From Flavobacterium sp. ALD4 (GTDB taxonomy: Bacteria > Bacteroidota > Bacteroidia > Flavobacteriales > Flavobacteriaceae): 64,000 nt of DNA. The translations under genes and the position numbers were made by a program. Each line of letters begins with the position of its first letter. Within the stretch, counting starts at the first letter, position 1. The stretch covers positions 496,001 through 560,000 of the forward strand of contig NZ_PJBJ01000030.1 in the NCBI RefSeq assembly GCF_002836475.1, given 5' to 3'. This document shows positions 15,787 through 55,895 of the stretch, piece after piece. The notes beneath the pieces are model-generated. The model was not told the origin of the DNA. It did not search any database and worked only from the letters and a program-made list of their open reading frames with translations.

Positions 15787-17982
15787 CTAAAACTTCAATG
15801 TCAAACCAACTAAGAAGTTGATTCCCGCTTGGGGATAATACCCTGCTCCTTCAATTGTTGCTATCTGGTTTGGATCACTGTAGTTGTCATCATAAGTAAA
15901 GAAATATCCGTTTGAAACATACTTGTAATCAAAAATATTATTGACTAATCCCGTTAATAGTATGGATTTGAAAACCGACTTAGGTTTGAACTCGTAAGAA
16001 ACATTCAAATCGTTGACAAAATAGGATTTCAATTTAGACCCTTCTGAATCTATATTTCCCATATATTGCTCTCCCACTATTTTGGACAAAAACGAAACCT
16101 GAAAATTGCTGACCGGTAAAAAGGTCAGTATGTTACCCGCTATGAATTCTGGTGAATAGGCGATATTGGTGTTACCCAAAGCGGTCAAGACGCCGTCTCT
16201 TTCAAAACGAAAATCTCTGTTTTTGTTACTGCTTATGGTAAAGTTTGGTCGGATGATCAAGTTATCCAATAACGCTATAGTGGCGTCAACCTCAAGACCT
16301 AGACGGTAGCTGTCCCCGCTGTTTTTCCGAATGGGGCTTCCCACGTCATCTAACTCTCCGGTTAAGATCAACTGGTCTTTGTAGGCCATGTAATAAACAT
16401 TCGCATTCAACTTCACTTTTGCAGTATTATGACGCAATCCGAATTCAAAATCATTCAGTTTTTCGGGTCTTGGACTTCCGTTTTCATAGTCGGTTCTGTT
16501 AGGCTCGCGGTTCGCTCTCGCATACGAAGCATACAATTGATTGTTGCTGTTAATCTCAAAACTCAACCCAGTTTTTGGGTTGAAGAAATTAAAGTTATCA
16601 TTTACCAAACCCGTTTCAGGGCTATTGGCTTTGTAATGCACATTTCTCAATTGCAAATCTCCGAAGAGGCTTAACTTGTCCGCTATCTGATAATTGGCTT
16701 TCGCAAAAACATTGCCGTCTGTTTTGGTCGCCGCATCATCATAGTAGCGATCGCCCAATTCGCTTTGCGAAGCAAAACGCGCCCAAATCACTTTTCCAAA
16801 ATGGCTTCCTTCGTATTTGTTGTAACCTCCACCAAGTATGACATCCAGCTTTTCGGTTTTGTAATTGGCAGAGAACGTGGTTCCGTAAAAATCATTGTCC
16901 AACCACTTTTGGCGAACGAGGTCCGCAGTCGTTACGGCACCAACGGCAAGCAAGCCATAATCCGCCATATCGGCATCTTCCTTGTAATTTTCATAATAGC
17001 CTTTCCCTTTTGAATAGAAAAAAGCAAGATTAGTATTCCAGTGCTCTGATACTTTTTCACTCCAATGCAATTGGAAATGATCTTGTTGGTAATTATCCGT
17101 TTCGTTATCATAAAAACGCATGTTACCAGCCTCATCCGTGAATATTCCGGCCGTATTAAACGTTCTGTCGCTGATTACCGTTTCAGCATCGATACCATTC
17201 CAGGATTGGTAGGTTTTTTCTTTTCCGCCAAAGGCTAACGCTTTAATCAAGGTCGTCTTGCCCACATAAGTCCCTTGCAGGAAATACGATTTCAAGTCAG
17301 AACTTGCACGATCAATGTACCCGTCAGATTTCAACGCGGACAATCGTCCGGCCAATTCAAAATGATCATCCATCAAACCCGTACTGAATTTCACCGTATG
17401 TTTTCGGGTATTGAAACTCCCGAAAGAATTCGAAATTTCCCCGTTGCTTTCTTTGGCATAACTATCCGTAAGCATGTTCAGACTTGCGCCAAAAGCTCCG
17501 GACCCATTAGTAGAAGTACCCACGCCGCGTTGCAGCTGCACACTTTCTAGCGAGGAAGCGAAATCAGGCATGTTAACCCAATAGGTACCGTGACTTTCTG
17601 AATCGTTATAGGGAATCCCGTTGATGGTTACATTCACACGAGTAGCATCGCTACCACGGACACGAATACCGGTATAACCTACTCCATTTCCGGCATCAGA
17701 AGTAGTTACAACTGAGGGTAAGTAATTCATTAAAATAGGAATATCTTGTCCTAAGTTTCTAAACTTGACATCCTTTTTGTCTAAATTACTAAAGCTAACC
17801 GGCGTTTTTGTAGTAACTCGAATAGCAGAAACCAATACCTCATCCAATGTATTAACTGTGGTAGTGTCTTTGACTTGTGCAAAAGAGAGAAAAGAAAATA
17901 GAGAAAAGAAAACAGACAGCAAAAAAGTTAGACTTTGTGTCTTTGCGCCAGTGTGGCGAGAAAAATTAAAAATAGTATTCAT
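15787..17982 (-). CDS. TonB-dependent outer-membrane receptor, probably for thiamine compounds
   Basis: 731-residue outer-membrane transporter. A signal peptide is followed by a TonB-box-like DEVLVSA segment (about 47-53), the plug domain (about 55-165, with GIRVRGSDATRVNVTINGIPYND) and a 22-strand barrel ending in a terminal aromatic strand (NFLVGLTLKF). Specificity is inferred from the TPP riboswitch at 18090-18174 in its leader: such riboswitch-controlled receptors in Bacteroidetes are predicted thiamine importers. No thiamine biosynthesis gene is adjacent. Confidence 0.93.
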   Translation of the reverse strand: MNTIFNFSRHTGAKTQSLTFLLSVFFSLFSFLSFAQVKDTTTVNTLDEVLVSAIRVTTKTPVSFSNLDKKDVKFRNLGQDIPILMNYLPSVVTTSDAGNGVGYTGIRVRGSDATRVNVTINGIPYNDSESHGTYWVNMPDFASSLESVQLQRGVGTSTNGSGAFGASLNMLTDSYAKESNGEISNSFGSFNTRKHTVKFSTGLMDDHFELAGRLSALKSDGYIDRASSDLKSYFLQGTYVGKTTLIKALAFGGKEKTYQSWNGIDAETVISDRTFNTAGIFTDEAGNMRFYDNETDNYQQDHFQLHWSEKVSEHWNTNLAFFYSKGKGYYENYKEDADMADYGLLAVGAVTTADLVRQKWLDNDFYGTTFSANYKTEKLDVILGGGYNKYEGSHFGKVIWARFASQSELGDRYYDDAATKTDGNVFAKANYQIADKLSLFGDLQLRNVHYKANSPETGLVNDNFNFFNPKTGLSFEINSNNQLYASYARANREPNRTDYENGSPRPEKLNDFEFGLRHNTAKVKLNANVYYMAYKDQLILTGELDDVGSPIRKNSGDSYRLGLEVDATIALLDNLIIRPNFTISSNKNRDFRFERDGVLTALGNTNIAYSPEFIAGNILTFLPVSNFQVSFLSKIVGEQYMGNIDSEGSKLKSYFVNDLNVSYEFKPKSVFKSILLTGLVNNIFDYKYVSNGYFFTYDDNYSDPNQIATIEGAGYYPQAGINFLVGLTLKF

Positions 17983-18089
17983 CCGTAAATAAGATTACGA
18001 ATAAAAGGGGGAATTATTCCTTTTGTTAAATTAATAAATGATTGTTTTCTATGACAAATAGATAGTGTGCACGCTATTTTTTTGTCATT

Positions 18090-18174
18090 TTTTCCCTTAG
18101 CGACATTACTCGCTCAGGTTCGTTGGGTATGATCTCAGCTCGTTATTTAGAGCACCCCTTTGAGACGCTGCAAA
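18090..18174 (-). ncRNA. TPP (thiamine pyrophosphate) riboswitch
   Basis: Read on the minus strand, the conserved THI-element blocks appear in order: GGGGTGC, GCTGAGATCATACCC, GAACCTGA and GTAATG. P3 (GCTC/GAGC) and P5 (GCGA/TCGC) are visible, and ACCC can close P2 with GGGG. A further hairpin follows at 18051-18088 (ATGACAAA/TTTGTCAT enclosing a second palindrome at 18062-18077), a likely expression platform; it has no U-run, so control may be translational. It ends ~107 bases before the TonB receptor start. Confidence 0.93.
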
Positions 18175-18269: not shown

Positions 18270-18647
18270 TTAGCTGTTTTCAAGTATGCCTTTTAATTCT
18301 AAACCTTTAAGCGGTTTATTAATATGACCACAAACAAAGGGATAAGCCATTGTTTTTTCCCTATCTTCATCAGAAATTGAACTTGTAACAATAACCACTT
18401 TCAAATTATGCGAAATTGTATTTAAATTCTCCAATACCTGAAAACCATCCATAACGGGCATATTTAAGTCTAATAAAACTACCGTTTCTGCTAACCCGTG
18501 GAAGTTCCCTTGAATAAAATCATAAGCAACATCCGATTTAACGTAACTTACTATAGAGCTATTTTCAAAATGCTTTTTAATTTCAAACTCAATTAAAAAC
18601 AACATGATTTTATCGTCATCAACCAATATAAAATTTGGCTTTCCCAT
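18270..18647 (-). CDS. Single-domain response regulator
   Basis: 125 residues consisting only of a CheY-like receiver: VDDDK acidic pocket, phospho-acceptor Asp in LLDLNMPVMDG, the T/S in IVTSS and Lys in INKPL. There is no output domain. It starts 2 bases after the sensor kinase stop, so the two are co-transcribed and presumably form a pair. Such stand-alone receivers act in phosphorelays or by protein interaction. Confidence 0.92.
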   Translation of the reverse strand: MGKPNFILVDDDKIMLFLIEFEIKKHFENSSIVSYVKSDVAYDFIQGNFHGLAETVVLLDLNMPVMDGFQVLENLNTISHNLKVVIVTSSISDEDREKTMAYPFVCGHINKPLKGLELKGILENS

Positions 18648-18649
18648 AT

Positions 18650-20419
18650 TTACAGATCTATTTTAACGGTTGTACCTTTGCTTACTTCACTTTCAATTTG
18701 GATTATACCATTATAATTTTCAACAATTAGTTTAGTCAAATACAACCCTATTCCGCTCCCTGTCCTCTCATGATGAAAACGTTTAAAAGGTTTAAAAAGC
18801 TTCTCTTTTTGAAAATTAGAGTCAAACCCAATACCATTATCTTTTATTATAATTGACCTAGTTTCATTCTCTATTTTAGTGGTGACTTCAATAAATTTTG
18901 CTGTTTCAGGATTCTCCGAAGCGTACTTGACAGCATTGCTTAGTATGTTCAGCAAAACACTGTTTAAATGAATATCCGATATTAAAAAAGCAGGACACTC
19001 AGAAAAATCTGATTTTATAGCTATTTGCTTTTCATCAATAAGATATTTAATTTGCAAAATCACATTATTGAATATAGGTTCAATATTGCGTTCCTTTAAA
19101 TCCTCCTTTGAAAAACTTTCCTTTTGTTTAATAATAGTTGTTAAACTATCTATTGTATTTTTCATCAATTCAACACTAGAGATGGCATTATCAATTAATA
19201 CAGAATTAAACTCTGGATCGGCACCCTCGTTTTGTAAAAGGTCCAGTAACCCCTCCAAATTGGTCAAAGGGCTCCTAAGATCATGAGAAGCAATCAAAGT
19301 CATTTGTTTTAATTCATTATTGTTGTCAAATAACTTTTTATCAAGACTCCTTCTTTTTTTTAACTCTAACCTCAATTTTTGATTTTTATCAAATAAGTTT
19401 TTCACCACTTTATTTAGAATACCATTAAAAATTAATGACAGAAAAGTTATCATCAAAACTGAAATTAAAATTAAATAGGCAATGCTTTTCTTCAAATCAC
19501 TCATGTGAATTGAATTGTCATGTAAAACAAACACATCCCCAAATTCTGTATCATCAAAATTAGTCAAAGCGAATGATTTTGACAGATAATCAATGCCATT
19601 CAACTTTACGGTTGATATTGAATCTGAATTTATTTTCTCTTCAATTACGCTTCTTGTAATTTTAGTTTCTGCTGGAAGCGTTGACCATTCTAAAAACAAA
19701 CTGTCGTTCCCTTTCTTAAATAGCCCGAACTTCTCAATTTTATCTTTATTTAATTTTAAATTGAGTACATTTCTTTCAGCAAAAAAAAGAAAATCCATAT
19801 GTGACTGCTTGGCGGTTTCCTCTAATACTTTATTAAATTCTTTTCCAACAATGACGTAACCCACCACTTTTTGAGTAGTATCGCGTACTGGTACAATTAC
19901 TTTTAAACAAACATCTGAATAAGTTCCCGAATCAATATGAAAAAAGCCCGCTCCCGTCTTGAATGCTCTTTTAAATATAACCCGTTGAGCTATACTTTCT
20001 CCAAATTCATTAGGACGATGACTTCTATACCTAACAATCCCATCAACTGAAATAAAATTTAACAAATCGGGATTTACCTCCAAACCCTCTTTTTTGTAAT
20101 AAGACTTTGAAATTTTTCGTAACTCCTTACGGTCATTCATTTTTAAAGCTTGCACCAAAGAATCATTTGTAGTTAACCGATCAATAAACAACCGGAGATT
20201 TATGGCTTCAGATTTTATTTTTTCTTCAAGCATCGTGTCAATATTTCTATATTCAAACGAAACCTCTTTTTGTATCGAAGTCTTCTGCAACAAGTAAACG
20301 GTTGTAAGAGATACTGCTATAAATATAATGGCAAACAAAAAAAAAGGGATAAAAATAGACTTTTTAAGTCCCCTAATCGTAAGTAATTTGTTTAATATTT
20401 GCTTCAGCTTTCCCTTCAT
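18650..20419 (-). CDS. Membrane sensor histidine kinase with large periplasmic sensor
   Basis: About 589 residues. Two membrane helices (about residues 15-38 and 320-345) enclose a ~280-residue periplasmic domain resembling a Cache-type sensor (VDGIVRYRSHRP, VRDTTQKVVGYVIVGKEF). The cytoplasmic kinase has H-box ASHDLRSPLTNL, N-box NILSNAVKYA, G1 DNGIGF and G2 GSGIGLYLTKLIVENY. The start at 20419 is chosen for its A-rich leader and because it puts the first helix near the N-terminus; an in-frame ATG at 20524 would add 35 polar residues. The response regulator follows by 2 bases. Confidence 0.9.
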   Translation of the reverse strand: MKGKLKQILNKLLTIRGLKKSIFIPFFLFAIIFIAVSLTTVYLLQKTSIQKEVSFEYRNIDTMLEEKIKSEAINLRLFIDRLTTNDSLVQALKMNDRKELRKISKSYYKKEGLEVNPDLLNFISVDGIVRYRSHRPNEFGESIAQRVIFKRAFKTGAGFFHIDSGTYSDVCLKVIVPVRDTTQKVVGYVIVGKEFNKVLEETAKQSHMDFLFFAERNVLNLKLNKDKIEKFGLFKKGNDSLFLEWSTLPAETKITRSVIEEKINSDSISTVKLNGIDYLSKSFALTNFDDTEFGDVFVLHDNSIHMSDLKKSIAYLILISVLMITFLSLIFNGILNKVVKNLFDKNQKLRLELKKRRSLDKKLFDNNNELKQMTLIASHDLRSPLTNLEGLLDLLQNEGADPEFNSVLIDNAISSVELMKNTIDSLTTIIKQKESFSKEDLKERNIEPIFNNVILQIKYLIDEKQIAIKSDFSECPAFLISDIHLNSVLLNILSNAVKYASENPETAKFIEVTTKIENETRSIIIKDNGIGFDSNFQKEKLFKPFKRFHHERTGSGIGLYLTKLIVENYNGIIQIESEVSKGTTVKIDL

Positions 20420-20674
20420 TTGTTTTTTTAATCCTATATGTGTAACTAAACTATTGTGCTCTAAATCATTACTTGCTCTTTCTCTAATGGAAAGAGTCAT
20501 TGCTTTAATTTGAAAAAATTTCATCTACAGAAAACCGCATCACACTACTTGACCATCTGCACTGCGCCAAATATACGACAATGCTTACAGTGAAAGACGC
20601 TCAAAATTAATTAAAAGACACCCAATCTGACTAAAAGTATCATTAAACACTTTTTGACTATTATCAGATCCTAT

Positions 20675-21079
20675 TTAATCCACATCTGGATTCCGCCGAC
20701 TTTGCTTCAATTGGGATGTGTTTTTTTTGTTCTTTATCCGTTTTCTAATAGCTGATTTTGGCACCCTGGTTACTTTCCTAGCTTTTTGCACAATTAATCC
20801 CTTCTTGACAAGTTCTAAAAAGCGTTTAGTGACAATATCCTTGTTCCTTAATTGGCTTCGATCTTCATCACAATTCAGGATTAGTATTGAATCTGCGGTT
20901 AATCGCGAAGACAGATTCGTTTCCAGTAATGTTTTTTCTTCCTCAGTTAACGCCTGAGAAATTTTCAAATCAAAGGACAACACCACTTTTGACGAAACTT
21001 TGTTAACATTCTGGCCGCCCGCCCCGCTACTGCGAACCGCTTTATAATTTAATTCTGATATTAGTTTTTGAATTTCCAT
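20675..21079 (-). CDS. arfB: Alternative ribosome-rescue factor / peptidyl-tRNA hydrolase ArfB
   Basis: 134-residue class-I release-factor-like protein without codon-recognition domains. The GGQ hydrolysis motif is at 21-23 (SSGAGGQNVNK), and the C-terminal basic tail (KRIKNKKNTSQLKQSRR) is the part that enters the empty mRNA channel. It releases peptides from stalled non-stop ribosomes. It follows the DUF4301 fusion gene by 23 bases. Confidence 0.93.
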   Translation of the reverse strand: MEIQKLISELNYKAVRSSGAGGQNVNKVSSKVVLSFDLKISQALTEEEKTLLETNLSSRLTADSILILNCDEDRSQLRNKDIVTKRFLELVKKGLIVQKARKVTRVPKSAIRKRIKNKKNTSQLKQSRRNPDVD

Positions 21080-21102: not shown

Positions 21103-23217
21103 TTATTTTGGTTGATGTGCCGCTTTCAGTAAATCATTTACTGTTTTCACCGGATTGAAAGTGACTAATGGAACCTCAACAAAAACAGTTAACCAGTTCG
21201 CCATGGCACCATTCCATAAACCCGGCAATTCATAGGTCCTGATTTGTTTTCCTGCGTTGTTCCTTTCTACAATAAAACCACTGTTCTGGTCAACAAACCG
21301 AGTAAGATCGAATTTTTCGTTTTTATAATTCTTAATTCCACAAACTAAATCCACGGGATTAAAATGTGTAGATGCGGACATAATACTGAATTGGCTCTCA
21401 TCATCCAAATCTACTTGCGATGATTCGACTATTTGCAATGAAATGATTCTGCTTTCGTTCCATACCCAAAAAGGCCCCCCTCCGGGTTCCCCTTCGTTTT
21501 TCACCATTCCGCATATGCGAATCGGTCGATTTAAAGCCTCCTTAATGCCCTCCAATTTATTTTCAAAAGGTAATTCATGGAAGTCAGTTTCCATTCCTAC
21601 ATTCAATTTTTCTTTCAAAAAACTGCTGATCTCCTCAATTTGTTCTTCTCCTATTGAATTAGAGTCAATCAGCCTCAAGTAACTAAAAACCTGCTGTTGC
21701 AATTCGACAAGCAATCCAGCCAAGGCCTTCTTGTACAGAGCAATAGTTTCATTACTATGAAGAATTACGTTGTCAATGTTTTTTATAAAGACGATATCCA
21801 CTTCCAAGTCGTTCAGGTTTTCAATTAAAGCTCCATGACCGCCGGGTCTGAATAACAATTCTCCGTTTGCATCTCTAAACGGGCTATTTGAAGCGTCAAC
21901 AGCGATCGTGTCCGTACTTTTATTTTGAAAAGAGTAACTAACGTTTATTGTAGTGTCCGCCTCTTTCTCAACTTTACTTTTTATTAAACTGACTATGTTT
22001 TCAAATTGATCTTGATGTTCTTCGGATACCGTAAAATGCAAATAAGAATTACCGTTCGAACTCGAATAGTAGCCACATTCATACAAATGTTCTTCAATGG
22101 GAGTCGCAATATTCGCAAGGTATTTATGGAAAGGTAAAATTCCTTTAGGTTTGCTGGCAAAATCAAAATAATCAGAAGCCAAAAGCGCTTTTATGAAATA
22201 ATAGTTTTTATAATCGCGACCGAGTGAATCAAAATCACTAAATTCCTTCTTTAATTTAGCGTCAATCGTATCGAAAAATGCAAACTTATCCATCCCAACA
22301 ATGAAAATCGCGAGCGCATTGTCTTTTTTTCTATTAATATAAGCATTGATACTTTCGTTCAATATATCGTATTCATTCAAGAATTCACTCAGGAATTTGA
22401 ACATTCTACTTGCGGCACCGGAAGCAGGAACGAATTTCATTAATTTCAAATCAGATTTGTGTGCGTCAAAAAAAGCGGCTTTATGCAAAAAATCAGTGTC
22501 AGACAATTTTAAAATCCCGTTAAACAAAACGGCGGGTTCAATCAAAACCATTTTTGAATTGCCGTTTTTAAAAATGTCCAACTGTTTTTCAAAATTCTCC
22601 AATGGAATTCCACGCTCATAGATTTGAACAAAATCGCGGGAATATAATCCCATTTCTTGCGCTTTTGTCAAATCATCTATAATTGCAATCGCTTTTTCAA
22701 GGCGTAAATCCGTGTCACCCGAAAGAGTTATAAATGGTTTCCTATTATCTATTAATGTTTTCTTAAAAACCTCAAAAACTGATTTCCTGCCCTCGGGTTT
22801 GTCTCTCAGATCGTCTTTTTCCCATGGCACATCAATATCAGTAAGAAAGAACAAATCGTATTCATGCTTTTGGGCGGCCTCATCCAGCTGCGGATCACAA
22901 TATCGATAATACACTTCCGAAAATACTTTTGTGACCATTAGATTAGTGTCGCAAAATAGATATTTATTAGCTATTGCAAGCTTTTCATTTTCTAATTTAG
23001 TCTGACCATAAGCTATTGGCAGCATATCATCAACATCGCAAATAAGCTGATTTTTATCCCATTTTTCCTGTAAATAATCCCTTGCAAATTCGGAAACCCA
23101 GGCCGTTTTATAGTATTCGGCCAATTGAATTGCCAAAGTTGTTTTGCCAGTACTTTCTGGACCAAACATTGCGATTTTTATAATTGCAGATTGCTCTTGC
23201 GTAAGATTTTCCTCCAT
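21103..23217 (-). CDS. Fusion of a NadR-like P-loop kinase and a DUF4301 domain
   Basis: 704 residues from the chosen ATG at 23217 (an in-frame ATG at 23367 would extend far into pnuC). Residues ~10-185 form a NadR/ribosylnicotinamide-kinase-like P-loop domain: Walker A GPESTGKT (19-26), SEFARDYL, and LTDIDVPWEKDDLRD. From ~195 to the end is DUF4301 (start FVQIYERGIPLENFEKQL). DUF4301 shows PASGAASRM (264-272), RPGGHG (457-462) and FIKNIDN (477-483), which resemble the GG-x-G-x-R-M and substrate-binding loops of sugar-type nucleotidyltransferases; that is my reading, not a known function. The start overlaps the end of pnuC by 40 bases, suggesting coupled translation and a shared salvage pathway. 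Confidence 0.85.
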   Translation of the reverse strand: MEENLTQEQSAIIKIAMFGPESTGKTTLAIQLAEYYKTAWVSEFARDYLQEKWDKNQLICDVDDMLPIAYGQTKLENEKLAIANKYLFCDTNLMVTKVFSEVYYRYCDPQLDEAAQKHEYDLFFLTDIDVPWEKDDLRDKPEGRKSVFEVFKKTLIDNRKPFITLSGDTDLRLEKAIAIIDDLTKAQEMGLYSRDFVQIYERGIPLENFEKQLDIFKNGNSKMVLIEPAVLFNGILKLSDTDFLHKAAFFDAHKSDLKLMKFVPASGAASRMFKFLSEFLNEYDILNESINAYINRKKDNALAIFIVGMDKFAFFDTIDAKLKKEFSDFDSLGRDYKNYYFIKALLASDYFDFASKPKGILPFHKYLANIATPIEEHLYECGYYSSSNGNSYLHFTVSEEHQDQFENIVSLIKSKVEKEADTTINVSYSFQNKSTDTIAVDASNSPFRDANGELLFRPGGHGALIENLNDLEVDIVFIKNIDNVILHSNETIALYKKALAGLLVELQQQVFSYLRLIDSNSIGEEQIEEISSFLKEKLNVGMETDFHELPFENKLEGIKEALNRPIRICGMVKNEGEPGGGPFWVWNESRIISLQIVESSQVDLDDESQFSIMSASTHFNPVDLVCGIKNYKNEKFDLTRFVDQNSGFIVERNNAGKQIRTYELPGLWNGAMANWLTVFVEVPLVTFNPVKTVNDLLKAAHQPK

Positions 23218-23801
23218 TCTAAATAGGCGTATATAGCTAAAATTGTAAAAATTAAATATTGTAACGACAGCATCCCCAATCCGCGATAAGCATACAATGG
23301 GGTAACGATCAGATCGCCGATAATCCAAAGCGTCCAGTTCTCGATTTTTTTGTTGGCCATATACCACATGGCTGTGAAAAATATTCCCGAAGCGAAAATA
23401 TCAACGTAATTATCTATGTTTATCGTATAATCAAAGAATTTATATATCCCGAAAACTACAAAAACTGTGACAAAAAACAGCAGGAACCCTATTGTTTTTT
23501 CTTTGTTATTCGTTCTTGTGATTGGCAGGTTATCAGCACCTTTAACTTTCTTGGTCCATTTGTACCATCCGTAAAAACTCATGATTGTAAAGTAGCCGTT
23601 AATCATCATGTCACCAAGATAGCCCGCGATAAAAAGCAAATAAACCGAAATTATCGTCGCTATCAATCCTGTGGGGTAAACCCAAATGTTCTCTTTTTTA
23701 GCGAACAAAACGCTCAAAATTCCGAAAACAAAAACAATGAACTCCAATACTATATGGGTGGTGGAAACATCTTTGTAGGCATTTAGAAAAAATTCTATCA
23801 T
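23178..23801 (-). CDS. pnuC: PnuC-family vitamin transporter
   Basis: 207-residue inner-membrane protein with about seven hydrophobic segments, of the PnuC family that takes up nicotinamide riboside (or thiamine in the PnuT branch). The NWTLWIIGDLI segment near residue 160 carries the W-x3-W-type motif tied to substrate stacking. The overlapping downstream NadR-like kinase argues for nicotinamide riboside trapping by phosphorylation; a thiamine role cannot be excluded because a TPP-controlled receptor lies nearby. Confidence 0.9.
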   Translation of the reverse strand: MIEFFLNAYKDVSTTHIVLEFIVFVFGILSVLFAKKENIWVYPTGLIATIISVYLLFIAGYLGDMMINGYFTIMSFYGWYKWTKKVKGADNLPITRTNNKEKTIGFLLFFVTVFVVFGIYKFFDYTINIDNYVDIFASGIFFTAMWYMANKKIENWTLWIIGDLIVTPLYAYRGLGMLSLQYLIFTILAIYAYLEWRKILRKSNLQL

Positions 23802-23830: not shown

Positions 23831-24553
23831 TTAACAAAAAAAATCGAGGTCATTTTCAAAAGCGGTTCCTATCACGACCAAATCAGCGCCTGCGTCATAA
23901 GCTTTTTGAATATCGGGTAAATCTACGATTCCGCCTCCAACAATTAATGGTATTTTAATATTTTGGGCTATTAATTCAATCATTTCGACAGGCACAGCAA
24001 GTCTAGCTCCGCTTCCAGCTTCCAGATAAATTAATTTACTGCCTAGCATCTCTCCCGCTTGTGCTGTCGCCAATGCCAAATCAAGATTGTTTCTATCCAA
24101 AGGTGTTGTTTTACTCACACGTTCCACGGCAGTTTCCGTTCCGCTTTCGATGAGCATATATCCTGTAGAAATCACTTCAAGTTGGGTGGCCTTTAAAACA
24201 GCTGCCGCTTTCACCTGATGTTCAATAAGATAATCTGGATTTCTACCGGAAATCAACGAAAGGAATAAAATAGCATCGGCCTCATTAGAAATCTGCGATG
24301 GATTTCCCGGGAAAAGCACCATAGGCAAATTGACTTTTTGCTTCAGGCTAGAAATTAATTCGTCAATTCTGTTTGTTACAACCTGGCTTCCGCCAATAAA
24401 TATATGTGTTGCGGGGGATTGGTTGATTTTTGCAGTCAACAATTCGAGATCTTTCCAAATCACTTTGTCGGGATCGATAAGAATGGCAAGGAGTTTTTTT
24501 GCCTCCTTTTTAGATACTACGATTTGCTTATATATGTCTGTCATTTTTGGCAC
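23831..24553 (-). CDS. pcrB: Geranylgeranylglyceryl / heptaprenylglyceryl phosphate synthase (PcrB family)
   Basis: 240-residue TIM-barrel prenyltransferase joining a polyprenyl diphosphate to sn-glycerol-1-phosphate. Family features: LLAILIDPDK near residue 22, IFIGGSQVV, MVLFPGNPSQ (about 78-87), the IYLEAGSG phosphate loop and VGGGIV/ADLVVIGTAFEN at the C-terminus. Group members are known in Bacteroidetes, where they make archaea-like ether lipids or precursors. It lies between the phosphopantetheinyl transferase (41 bases) and pnuC (29 bases). Confidence 0.92.
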   Translation of the reverse strand: MPKMTDIYKQIVVSKKEAKKLLAILIDPDKVIWKDLELLTAKINQSPATHIFIGGSQVVTNRIDELISSLKQKVNLPMVLFPGNPSQISNEADAILFLSLISGRNPDYLIEHQVKAAAVLKATQLEVISTGYMLIESGTETAVERVSKTTPLDRNNLDLALATAQAGEMLGSKLIYLEAGSGARLAVPVEMIELIAQNIKIPLIVGGGIVDLPDIQKAYDAGADLVVIGTAFENDLDFFC

Positions 24554-24594: not shown

Positions 24595-25230
24595 TTACTG
24601 CTTCTCACAAGCATGAACCAAAATAAAATTTTCTATTTCTTCAAAATAAATCGTAAAATCCCTGATTATGGTGTCATAGTGAAGTTCGGCTGCGGCCACT
24701 GTATCCTCCATTTCAAAAGCACTCACTTTGATATGCTCTTTGAAACTGATTCCTTTTTCGTTTCTAATTTTAAAAATAGCTTCTTTGGCTCCCCAAATTA
24801 TAGTCAACTTTTTGATGTAGCTGCTTAAATCACTTTGATTTAAATAGCTAGATTCGACATCGACAAACTTATCAGCGATACGGATTATTTTGTCCCGCTG
24901 CAATTCAACATCGATTCCAACGGTTTTGTTGCTAACGATAATAGCCGAAAAATTATGAGAATGCGTTATCGAAATGTATTTATCATCTTTTAGATGCGGT
25001 TTCCCCAATTCATCATAGTACAAATCAAAATCAGTATAACCGGCTGTTTGCAATAGTTTGCGAACACTTAAAAAACCCCGTTGATGTATTTCAGACTTCA
25101 TTCCCTCAAGACGAATGCAGTTTTTCTCGTTTAGTTGTACTTCATTGTTTAATTGCTCAAAGGATTCGGTGATTTTCCAAACGAAAATTTGTGTTGTAGA
25201 ACTAAAGCGTATCGTTTTGTATAAAGGCAT
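24595..25230 (-). CDS. 4'-phosphopantetheinyl transferase superfamily protein
   Basis: 211 residues of the Sfp-like group that attach phosphopantetheine from CoA to carrier proteins. The magnesium-binding motifs are seen: GIDVELQRD (about 115-123) and WGAKEAIFK (about 154-162), preceded by SITHSHNFSA. Either the housekeeping ACP activator or a lipid/secondary-metabolism enzyme. First gene of a probable minus-strand operon reaching down to arfB. Confidence 0.9.
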   Translation of the reverse strand: MPLYKTIRFSSTTQIFVWKITESFEQLNNEVQLNEKNCIRLEGMKSEIHQRGFLSVRKLLQTAGYTDFDLYYDELGKPHLKDDKYISITHSHNFSAIIVSNKTVGIDVELQRDKIIRIADKFVDVESSYLNQSDLSSYIKKLTIIWGAKEAIFKIRNEKGISFKEHIKVSAFEMEDTVAAAELHYDTIIRDFTIYFEEIENFILVHACEKQ

Positions 25231-25248
25231 GATATATAATTGATTTTC

Positions 25249-25349
25249 ATAGCCCCGATGGAAACGGCATCCTTTTTATCTTGCAAATAGCTTCTGGTTA
25301 CCAAAACAAGTTCCAGATAAAAAGATATAGTGAACAGCGGGATTAGCTC
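25249..25349 (+). repeat. Dispersed imperfect-palindrome element, copy 1 (plus)
   Basis: Starts AGCCCCGATGG and runs through ATCCTTTTTATC, a central segment, GATAAAAAGATA and AGCGGGATTAGCTCC. Inner arms pair (ATCTTTTT type with AAAAAGAT type). Same layout as the copies at 26934, 45169, 55490, 55808 and 61163. Confidence 0.75.
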
Positions 25350-45168: not shown

Positions 45169-45248
45169 GGAGCTAATCCGGCTATACGTTGCAATCTTTT
45201 TATCCCAAAAAATGGAAAAAAAAGGATTTTCACTGCTATCCAGGCTAG
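45169..45248 (-). repeat. Dispersed imperfect-palindrome element, copy 3 (minus)
   Basis: Plus strand reads GGAGCTAATCCGGCTATACG, TTGCAATCTTTTTATCC, an A-rich loop, GGAAAAAAAAGGATTTTC and CTGCTATCCAGGCT. It is the clearest copy: the reverse complement of copy 25249 in all framework blocks, just downstream of the rng terminator. Confidence 0.8.
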
Positions 45249-45427
45249 GGTCTATAATAATTAAAGTATCCGGTTGTTAACAACTTAATTATTTATTTGT
45301 AATAAAAACAACATACATTAGTGTTGCATAATGCATAGTCTCTGCGTCATAGAAAGAGCAAGTATGAATCATTACTGACTTTATAGAAAACATAAATAGG
45401 AATAAATCAACTACCACCGTAAAAACC

Positions 45428-55567: not shown

Positions 55568-55807
55568 GCGATTATGCATTTCCGATTGCCTCAATTTTTT
55601 ATTGTAAATTTCTTCAGTCCGAGTATTCCTCAATTGACAATTATATCCATAACGCTTTTCGATACTTTTTTTCATCGCATTCCACAAAAAAACACTTGAA
55701 CTGACGATTTTAATAGCTACGCTGCGCAACTAAAGTGCATCCTGTCATTAATTTGAGTAGTTGCACTCTTCCGTATGCCCTTTCTTAAGATTCATAAACG
55801 TTATCAC

Positions 55808-55895
55808 CTAGCCCCGATTGCAGTGGAAATCCTTTTTATTTTTCCTTTAAAAATAGAAAGATTGCAACGGAAAGCGGGACCTGCTTTTTTAAAAC
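55808..55895 (+). repeat. Dispersed imperfect-palindrome element, copy 5 (plus)
   Basis: TAGCCCCGATTGCAGTGG, AATCCTTTTTATTTTTCC, then AAAAATAGAAAGATTGCAACGG and AAAGCGGGACC. With copy 4 it forms an inverted pair about 240 bases apart. The AhpD-gene duplication has no counterpart of this stretch. Confidence 0.75.

Follow-up and report, generated by a model that had tools for sequence, protein, structure and literature searches.

A NadR-like kinase fused to DUF4301 beside pnuC in Flavobacterium: a likely thiamine salvage locus carrying a predicted nucleotidyltransferase

Introduction

What do a NadR-like P-loop kinase and a DUF4301 domain do in one polypeptide next to a PnuC-family transporter? 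This question is raised by a locus of Flavobacterium sp. ALD4 (Flavobacteriaceae), where a single reading frame encodes both domains and overlaps pnuC. The window analyzed here is the whole stretch of 64,000 nucleotides around it (contig NZ_PJBJ01000030.1 of assembly GCF_002836475.1, positions 496,001 to 560,000), and its features are listed in Table 1. A sequence-only reading had proposed that the kinase and DUF4301 carry out the last two reactions that turn a riboside into a dinucleotide, and had mentioned a thiamine (PnuT) branch as the alternative. It is toward that alternative that the evidence leads, through a thiamine pyrophosphate (TPP) riboswitch, a receptor, and loci in which thiamine pyrophosphokinase (TPK) is found. 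We consider it fairly probable that the locus serves thiamine salvage by a TonB-dependent receptor, PnuT, a NadR-like thiamine kinase and ThiL, and that DUF4301 is a separate nucleotidyltransferase that became fused to the kinase in Flavobacterium.

Results

One reading frame joins the kinase to DUF4301

The fused protein is read from an ATG as one frame of 704 codons. Pfam places AAA_28, the kinase domain related to NadR and to ribosylnicotinamide kinase (RNK), at residues 14-169 (E = 1.3e-38) and DUF4301 (PF14134) at residues 194-702 (E = 1.2e-201), and the two-domain architecture described in the sequence-only reading is thereby borne out, as is its 40-base overlap with pnuC (23178-23217), the ATG of the fusion lying inside the end of pnuC. 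An alternative GTG start would give 754 residues. The ATG is preferred because the 25 fused relatives, when begun at the ATG closest to the kinase domain, are alike in length (698-708 residues) and in their openings (MEE or MEK). They come from a set of 80 named loci, which are the top 80 among 581 relatives and nearly all flavobacterial; the presence of the fusion in 25 of the 80 means that it is not an artefact of one assembly. Structure prediction of the whole fusion from 26 sequences gave two domains (predicted local distance difference test score, pLDDT, 86.8; predicted template modeling score, pTM, 0.81), with a short, well predicted break between helices at residues 189-192 and a kinase lid (residues 131-137) scoring below 50.

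When the kinase part is compared with the Protein Data Bank (PDB), the nearest solved chains are those of NadR (best E = 2.3e-20), and the NadR/RNK-like family assignment made from the sequence therefore holds. The kinase part scores 94 bits against the NadR model TIGR01526, below its cut-off of 341.15, and Pfam finds no nicotinamide mononucleotide adenylyltransferase (NMNAT) domain (CTP_transf_like) in the fusion, whose kinase begins at residue 14. The TPK families PF04263 and TIGR01378 also have no match in the fusion. The kinase domain without the NMNAT part occurs throughout our Flavobacteriaceae loci that have a kinase and in L160 and L163. Among 67 locus kinases, 66 have the Walker A motif and 66 the lid pattern PWxxDx[LI]RD. 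The locus kinases carry GPES at the start of Walker A, where five NadR rows have G or A instead of P, and their lid is mostly PWxxDDLRDxP, versus mostly DGxR in NadR (G after D in four of the five rows). GPES and LRD were considered as marks of the substrate and rejected, since L168, a full NadR by profile that adjoins a pnuC in genome G190, carries GPES and DSLRD.

Some DUF4301 proteins without a kinase open, as judged by eye, like the fused protein, and this shared opening suggests that the kinase domain was lost in frame in several cases. In L027 (1078-3033), a whole DUF4301 is preceded by a decayed kinase domain of which about 100 residues, lacking Walker A, are left, and the start overlaps pnuC in the same way. 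Separately, a second AAA_28 kinase of 199 residues lies at L134 (G000:C27, 6686-7282), adjoining a gene that by eye is RecQ-like, and most of the 100 Flavobacteriaceae genera surveyed have at least two AAA_28 genes per genome.

A TPP riboswitch and a TonB-dependent receptor belong to the locus

The element matching the TPP riboswitch family RF00059 in the window scores 39.1 bits (E = 5.0e-6 in a search of one genome), below the gathering score of 54.3. The elements of the three other loci tested (L051, L068 and L081) score 42.8-45.7 bits, also below it, and in all four the model positions 1-105 are aligned end to end. A default Rfam scan at the gathering threshold misses the window element, as is to be expected for all four of these flavobacterial elements, which score only 39-46 bits. 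A model, R1, built from these four elements matches 72 of the 80 named loci plus the window at E ≤ 7e-5, four of these 73 by construction; the 104.3 bits of the window element under R1 come from a copy that helped to build the model. In 71 of the 72 loci, which is 71 of the 80, a TonB receptor reading frame lies directly downstream of the element. The eight loci without an R1 match are three of Aquimarina (L096, L100 and L103), three on short contigs (L097, L114 and L130), and L095 and L124, where no receptor was detected in the stretch examined.

Gut Bacteroidetes have thiamine operons of the type OMthi-pnuT-tnr3 (BT2390, BT2396-BT2397), and tnr3, the gene beside pnuT, is called thiamine pyrophosphorylase in the portion of PMC5613172 that deals with them. 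The order TPP element, receptor, PnuC, TPK in L181, from the Flavobacteriaceae genome G409, and in L182, of family f11, matches the order of these operons as given there. Genome G409 lacks DUF4301 as well as a kinase linked to pnuC, its single AAA_28 gene being on another contig, and the DUF4301 surroundings of L182 resemble those of a Bacteroides. Two further f11 genomes (L162 and L166) have receptor, PnuC and TPK in the stretch examined, and receptors homologous to that of the window occur in L161, L162, L164 and L166. Family f8 provides L174, in which a TPP element-receptor pair is found some 3 kb away from PnuC and kinase, with DUF4301 on another contig. Of ten such other PnuC surroundings, the three in L174, L181 and L182 have a TPP element; at E ≤ 1 none was found in L173, in L175-L180, or in L162 and L166, which span only about 1.5 kb on each side. 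Rfam at a relaxed threshold found no TPP element in L160-L171, the elements of L182 and L181 lying past the ends of L161 and L164.

Between the ArfB-like gene and the TPP element, the window encodes a histidine kinase together with a single response regulator (18270-20524); L098, L102 and L112 have other genes at that place, sensor- and regulator-like by eye. Near a pnuC gene in L167, two miRNA families match positions 2233-2324 weakly, on either strand and below the gathering score; the feature is perhaps a strong hairpin.

The transporter and the probable source of thiamine monophosphate

The NCBIfam model named for the nicotinamide riboside (NR) transporter PnuC accepts the window PnuC over its cut-off, and it accepts the TPK-linked PnuC of L162 too, so the standard NR name cannot tell NR from thiamine. 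The thiamine context that would make the window protein a PnuT is provided by the TPP riboswitch and receptor of the cluster, with no riboswitch on pnuC itself. A motif W..W...D, with D rather than N, was considered as proof of thiamine rather than NR and rejected, with exceptions on both sides: N in L070, L080, L084, L090, L105 and the TPK-linked L164, and D in the PnuC of a Lysinibacillus phage, encoded near a gene of NadR length. On a tree, the locus PnuCs (L051-L130, 24 rows) form two clades at odds with the DUF4301 tree (L053, L055 and L066 versus the window, for example), as would be expected had pnuC been exchanged at its position on several occasions.

In a survey of 100 Flavobacteriaceae genera, ThiL is over its cut-off in 98 and TPK is present in 7, the window's genome included (in 5 of the 81 genomes that are at least 90% complete). 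ThiE is over its cut-off in 26, reaches E ≤ 1e-28 in 32 and E ≤ 1e-3 in 40. Both ThiE (E ≤ 1e-28) and TPK are missing from 65 genera, 63 of which have ThiL over the cut-off; among the 81 more complete genomes, 51 lack both, and ThiL is present in every one of these, a pnuC-linked kinase in at least 41. Because ThiL needs thiamine monophosphate (TMP) and ThiE is missing, a thiamine kinase is the likely source of TMP, and in genomes lacking ThiE and TPK the pnuC-linked kinase is the candidate. Eight Flavobacteriales metagenome-assembled genomes combine ThiL with a putative thiamine receptor (omr1) and miss key biosynthetic enzymes, according to sections of PMC12236431, and the legend of its Figure 1 gives thiK as the general thiamine kinase, while those sections name no thiamine kinase for these bacteria. 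The loci described here have the same pattern of ThiL and receptor, with a candidate thiamine kinase added.

TPK was searched for in 48 of the 80 named-locus genomes and is present in 25: in all 10 loci with PnuC and no kinase, and in 15 of 16 with the fusion. The 23 without it comprise 19 with a separate kinase, the fused L119 and the three Aquimarina. The DUF4301 tree implies a single change in TPK and five in the presence of the kinase, so the finding of TPK in all ten kinase-less loci is not phylogenetically independent. A test of independent pairs of TPK versus kinase loss gave one pair for, none against and three with no difference, which is not significant, and a reading of TPK and kinase loss as independent events was rejected. 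At least three of the seven TPK genomes also have the kinase beside pnuC (G396, G452 and G462), and the same holds for the window's own genome.

It is rather unlikely that the locus is an ordinary NR uptake system, in which PnuC and a single-domain RNK would act with NadD finishing the pathway, and in which the thiamine receptor and DUF4301 would be mere neighbors. The homology of the kinase to NadR and the NR name given by NCBIfam, with the reservation that its model also accepts L162, would fit such a system, as would genes of NadR length (331-348 residues, with an NMNAT motif recognized by eye) that adjoin pnuC or lie close to it in cyanobacterial (Nostoc), enterobacterial (an E. coli plasmid) and phage (two phages) records. 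It is harder to reconcile with the link of receptor and riboswitch in 71 of the 80 named loci, and with the occupation by TPK of the kinase's place beside pnuC in G409. The genomes lacking TPK and ThiE retain ThiL and must therefore obtain TMP in some way. In the three Aquimarina loci, DUF4301 is kept while kinase, PnuC, receptor and riboswitch are jointly missing; across their genomes PnuC has no match in G501 (L096) or G502 (L100) and a broken match in G503 (L103).

DUF4301 is separable from the kinase and the transporter

DUF4301 is found in 66 of 395 Bacteroidota genomes and in 84 of the 100 Flavobacteriaceae genera. In 78 of these 84 it lies no more than 1.5 kb from pnuC on the same strand. 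The exceptions are G410, G415, G416, G433, G470 and G490, some of which are fragmented genomes; in G410 an AAA_28 kinase is still beside DUF4301. Outside the family, neither pnuC nor the kinase was found near DUF4301 in any of 19 regions of 16-20 kb searched with the window proteins as queries, and a PnuC profile search of 15 of those 19 genomes found none at the place of DUF4301. The co-occurrence that the sequence-only reading made its test thus stands inside Flavobacteriaceae and fails outside. In all, 19 DUF4301-bearing genomes were searched for PnuC; 8 of them have none, and a ninth has a broken piece only.

The named loci tell a similar story: 41 have a separate kinase and DUF4301, 25 the fusion, 10 PnuC without a kinase, and four neither; in L130, one of the four, the contig ends just upstream. 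Conversely, PnuC without DUF4301 occurs in 15 genera, and at least nine of these have the PnuC-kinase pair. Since losses run in both directions, the best-supported account is that DUF4301 is functionally independent of the thiamine module of kinase and PnuC. Beyond Flavobacteriaceae the neighbors of DUF4301 seldom recur, and L038 and L049, of one genus, have several in common. In L031-L033 of family f11 and in the Bacteroides record L189, DUF4301 is next to a divergent gene that by eye is RelA/SpoT or RelA/SpoT-like, and panB or a panB-like gene is near it in L032, L033 and L189. A search of viral contigs gave 58 pattern matches, none encoding a DUF4301 relative.

These distributions bear most directly on the original proposal, according to which PnuC would import NR, the kinase would make nicotinamide mononucleotide, and DUF4301, as an adenylyltransferase of the glycosyltransferase A (GT-A) type, would make NAD, NadR being remade from other parts. 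The kinase is closest to the RNK of NadR and lacks the NMNAT domain, DUF4301 has a predicted nucleotidyltransferase fold, and its place beside pnuC is stable across the family. The proposal is nevertheless very improbable. DUF4301 persists without kinase and PnuC, including ten loci with PnuC and DUF4301 and no kinase, the pair persists without DUF4301, and the cluster includes a receptor under a TPP riboswitch. In G190, PnuC is beside the full NMNAT-RNK NadR (L168) while DUF4301 sits elsewhere in the same genome.

DUF4301 has a predicted UDP-sugar pyrophosphorylase-like fold

The motifs PASGAASRM and RPGGHG...FIKNIDN, which the sequence-only reading had compared with those of sugar nucleotidyltransferases, are present in DUF4301, and many of their letters are invariant across 72 aligned DUF4301 sequences. 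An AlphaFold2 model from 72 sequences has a pLDDT of 91.0 and a pTM of 0.90. All 19 Foldseek matches to the PDB at E ≤ 1e-3 are chains of UDP-glucose pyrophosphorylase (UGPase) or UDP-N-acetylglucosamine pyrophosphorylase (UAP), with TM-scores of only 0.34-0.53. Among the best 1000 from Foldseek, VIA-align gives a Leishmania enzyme with Z = 23.9 over 333 aligned residues, a root mean square deviation of 3.5 and 15% identity; in its best 50 rows the first 48 are UGPase, UAP or UDP-sugar pyrophosphorylase (USP) and the last two are GlmU. By sequence there is no match of DUF4301 to Pfam UDPGP at E ≤ 0.1, and sequence profile A2 has none among PDB sequences at E ≤ 10; a tie to known folds by sequence was therefore rejected. 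DUF4301 thus resembles the UDP-glucose and UDP-N-acetylglucosamine pyrophosphorylases in predicted fold and differs from them in its low identity and in going unrecognized by sequence. The order of the nucleotide loop, PxGHG and NIDN-like motifs is presumably as in UDPGP enzymes, and we take RPGGHG...NIDN to be like the PPGHGD...NIDN of UGPase. We confidently predict a GT-A/UDPGP fold from these models; the expectation of such a fold is upheld and an unrelated one did not appear. DUF4301 is most likely a nucleotidyltransferase that would join a nucleoside triphosphate to a phosphorylated small molecule, the likeliest being a sugar 1-phosphate.

A fold of this class could also be placed within thiamine metabolism. 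Adenosine thiamine phosphates are known nucleotidyl-thiamines, and the kinase and then DUF4301 might form a compound of this kind. The fusion, which is found in Flavobacterium, separately in Croceivirga (L119, apart from Flavobacterium on the tree) and in L018 and L022, would favor such a role, together with the stable adjacency to pnuC. We nevertheless judge it unlikely that DUF4301 acts on thiamine, given that it is kept in Aquimarina without the thiamine module, stands alone outside Flavobacteriaceae, occurs in genomes with no intact PnuC, and is missing from at least nine genera that keep the PnuC-kinase pair. Distinctly unlikely is the specific version in which the fusion is a two-step enzyme of Bacteroidota, with the kinase passing TMP, or TPP after ThiL, to the UDPGP-fold domain to give a nucleotidylated thiamine as a signal or storage form. 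If true, it would be a kind of enzyme not described in the literature searched.

Features of the window

The ArfB-like, PcrB/GGGP-synthase and 4'-phosphopantetheinyl transferase genes of Table 1 are probably outside the pathway. Three Flavo-1 RNAs lie within the window, at 25247-25348, 45171-45250 and 55806-55885.

Table 1 Features of the locus within the 64,000-nucleotide window.
Feature	Position	Strand	Basis
TonB-dependent receptor	15787-17982	minus	PF00593, E 1.9e-25; PF07715, E 1.7e-11; OMthi/omr1 type by context
TPP riboswitch aptamer	18076-18169	minus	RF00059; directly upstream of the TonB receptor gene
ArfB-like peptidyl-tRNA hydrolase	20675-21079	minus	NF006718, 117.1 bits (cut-off 100); beside DUF4301 in many loci
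Kinase-DUF4301 fusion	21103-23217	minus	704 residues, ATG start, one frame
DUF4301 domain	21103-22647	minus	Fusion residues 191-704 and stop; PF14134; UDP-sugar-pyrophosphorylase-like predicted fold
NadR/RNK-like P-loop kinase domain (predicted thiamine kinase)	22648-23217	minus	Fusion residues 1-190; AAA_28; NadR chains nearest; function from context
PnuC-family inner-membrane transporter, read as PnuT (thiamine)	23178-23801	minus	PF04973, E 2.6e-49; specificity from context
PcrB/GGGP-synthase family gene	23831-24553	minus	NF003198, 284.4 bits (cut-off 247); frequent neighbor
4'-phosphopantetheinyl transferase	24595-25230	minus	PF01648 over cut-off; frequent neighbor

Discussion

In the thiamine salvage pathway that we favor, the riboswitch-controlled TonB receptor would bring thiamine through the outer membrane, and the PnuC-family protein, acting as PnuT, would mediate its facilitated diffusion across the inner membrane. 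The NadR-like kinase would then phosphorylate the hydroxyethyl group of thiamine, trapping it as TMP, and ThiL would convert TMP to TPP. The kinase would thus fill the place beside pnuT that is held in Bacteroides by Tnr3, which we take to be a TPK. In Flavobacterium the kinase gene has become joined to its downstream neighbor, DUF4301, which would work apart from thiamine uptake.

Two known systems invite comparison. With the Bacteroides OMthi-pnuT-tnr3 locus, as far as the relevant part of PMC5613172 describes it, the flavobacterial locus has in common a TPP riboswitch, a TonB receptor, a PnuC-family transporter and, beside its gene, a kinase-type gene. It differs in that the gene beside pnuC encodes a NadR-like kinase (joined to DUF4301 in Flavobacterium) and in that the receptor has a riboswitch of its own, with the pnuC genes located upstream of it. 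With NadR and PnuC it has in common a P-loop kinase homologous to RNK and a pnuC neighbor; unlike NadR, the locus kinase lacks NMNAT, has a lid that mostly reads DDLRD and stands in a thiamine context, but the NadR of L168 reads DSLRD. In the literature searched, the L. lactis NadR paper PMC7221760 is the one that mentions ribosylnicotinamide kinase, thiamin and PnuC. No paper in the literature searched treats NadR and a thiamine kinase together; a 2016 paper on vitamin B1 in marine flavobacteria and a 2018 paper on PnuT transport may mention the kinase.

Several observations weigh against thiamine as the substrate or against the separate role of DUF4301. The nearest solved relatives of the kinase are nicotinamide riboside kinases, and we found no residue in the alignments that separates a thiamine-type from an NR-type kinase. 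On the PnuC tree, which has long branches and does not decide the specificity, the locus PnuCs group with two other kinase-linked PnuCs and not with the TPK-linked ones; they stand apart from both the TPK-linked and the NR PnuCs. The riboswitch sits on the receptor gene and not on pnuC, and no TPP element or receptor was found in the 17 kb of L173, which has a kinase-PnuC pair and belongs to family f8 like L174, or in L175-L180. The window's genome has both TPK, as a separate gene (L135), and the kinase, which means that in this genome there is no missing TPK for the kinase to replace. The pattern of TPK and kinase is consistent, but it is essentially that of one clade, with G409 supporting it from outside, and amounts to no statistical proof. 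DUF4301 adjoins pnuC in most of the genera that have it, and a fusion often marks a functional link.

Flavobacteria are widespread heterotrophs, and their dependence on vitamin B1 is of ecological interest. For the enzyme that makes TMP from imported thiamine in these bacteria, the locus offers a concrete candidate, next to a transporter that the standard model labels as one for vitamin B3 (NR). DUF4301, which one paper of the literature searched names, gains a predicted fold, a reaction class and candidate substrates.

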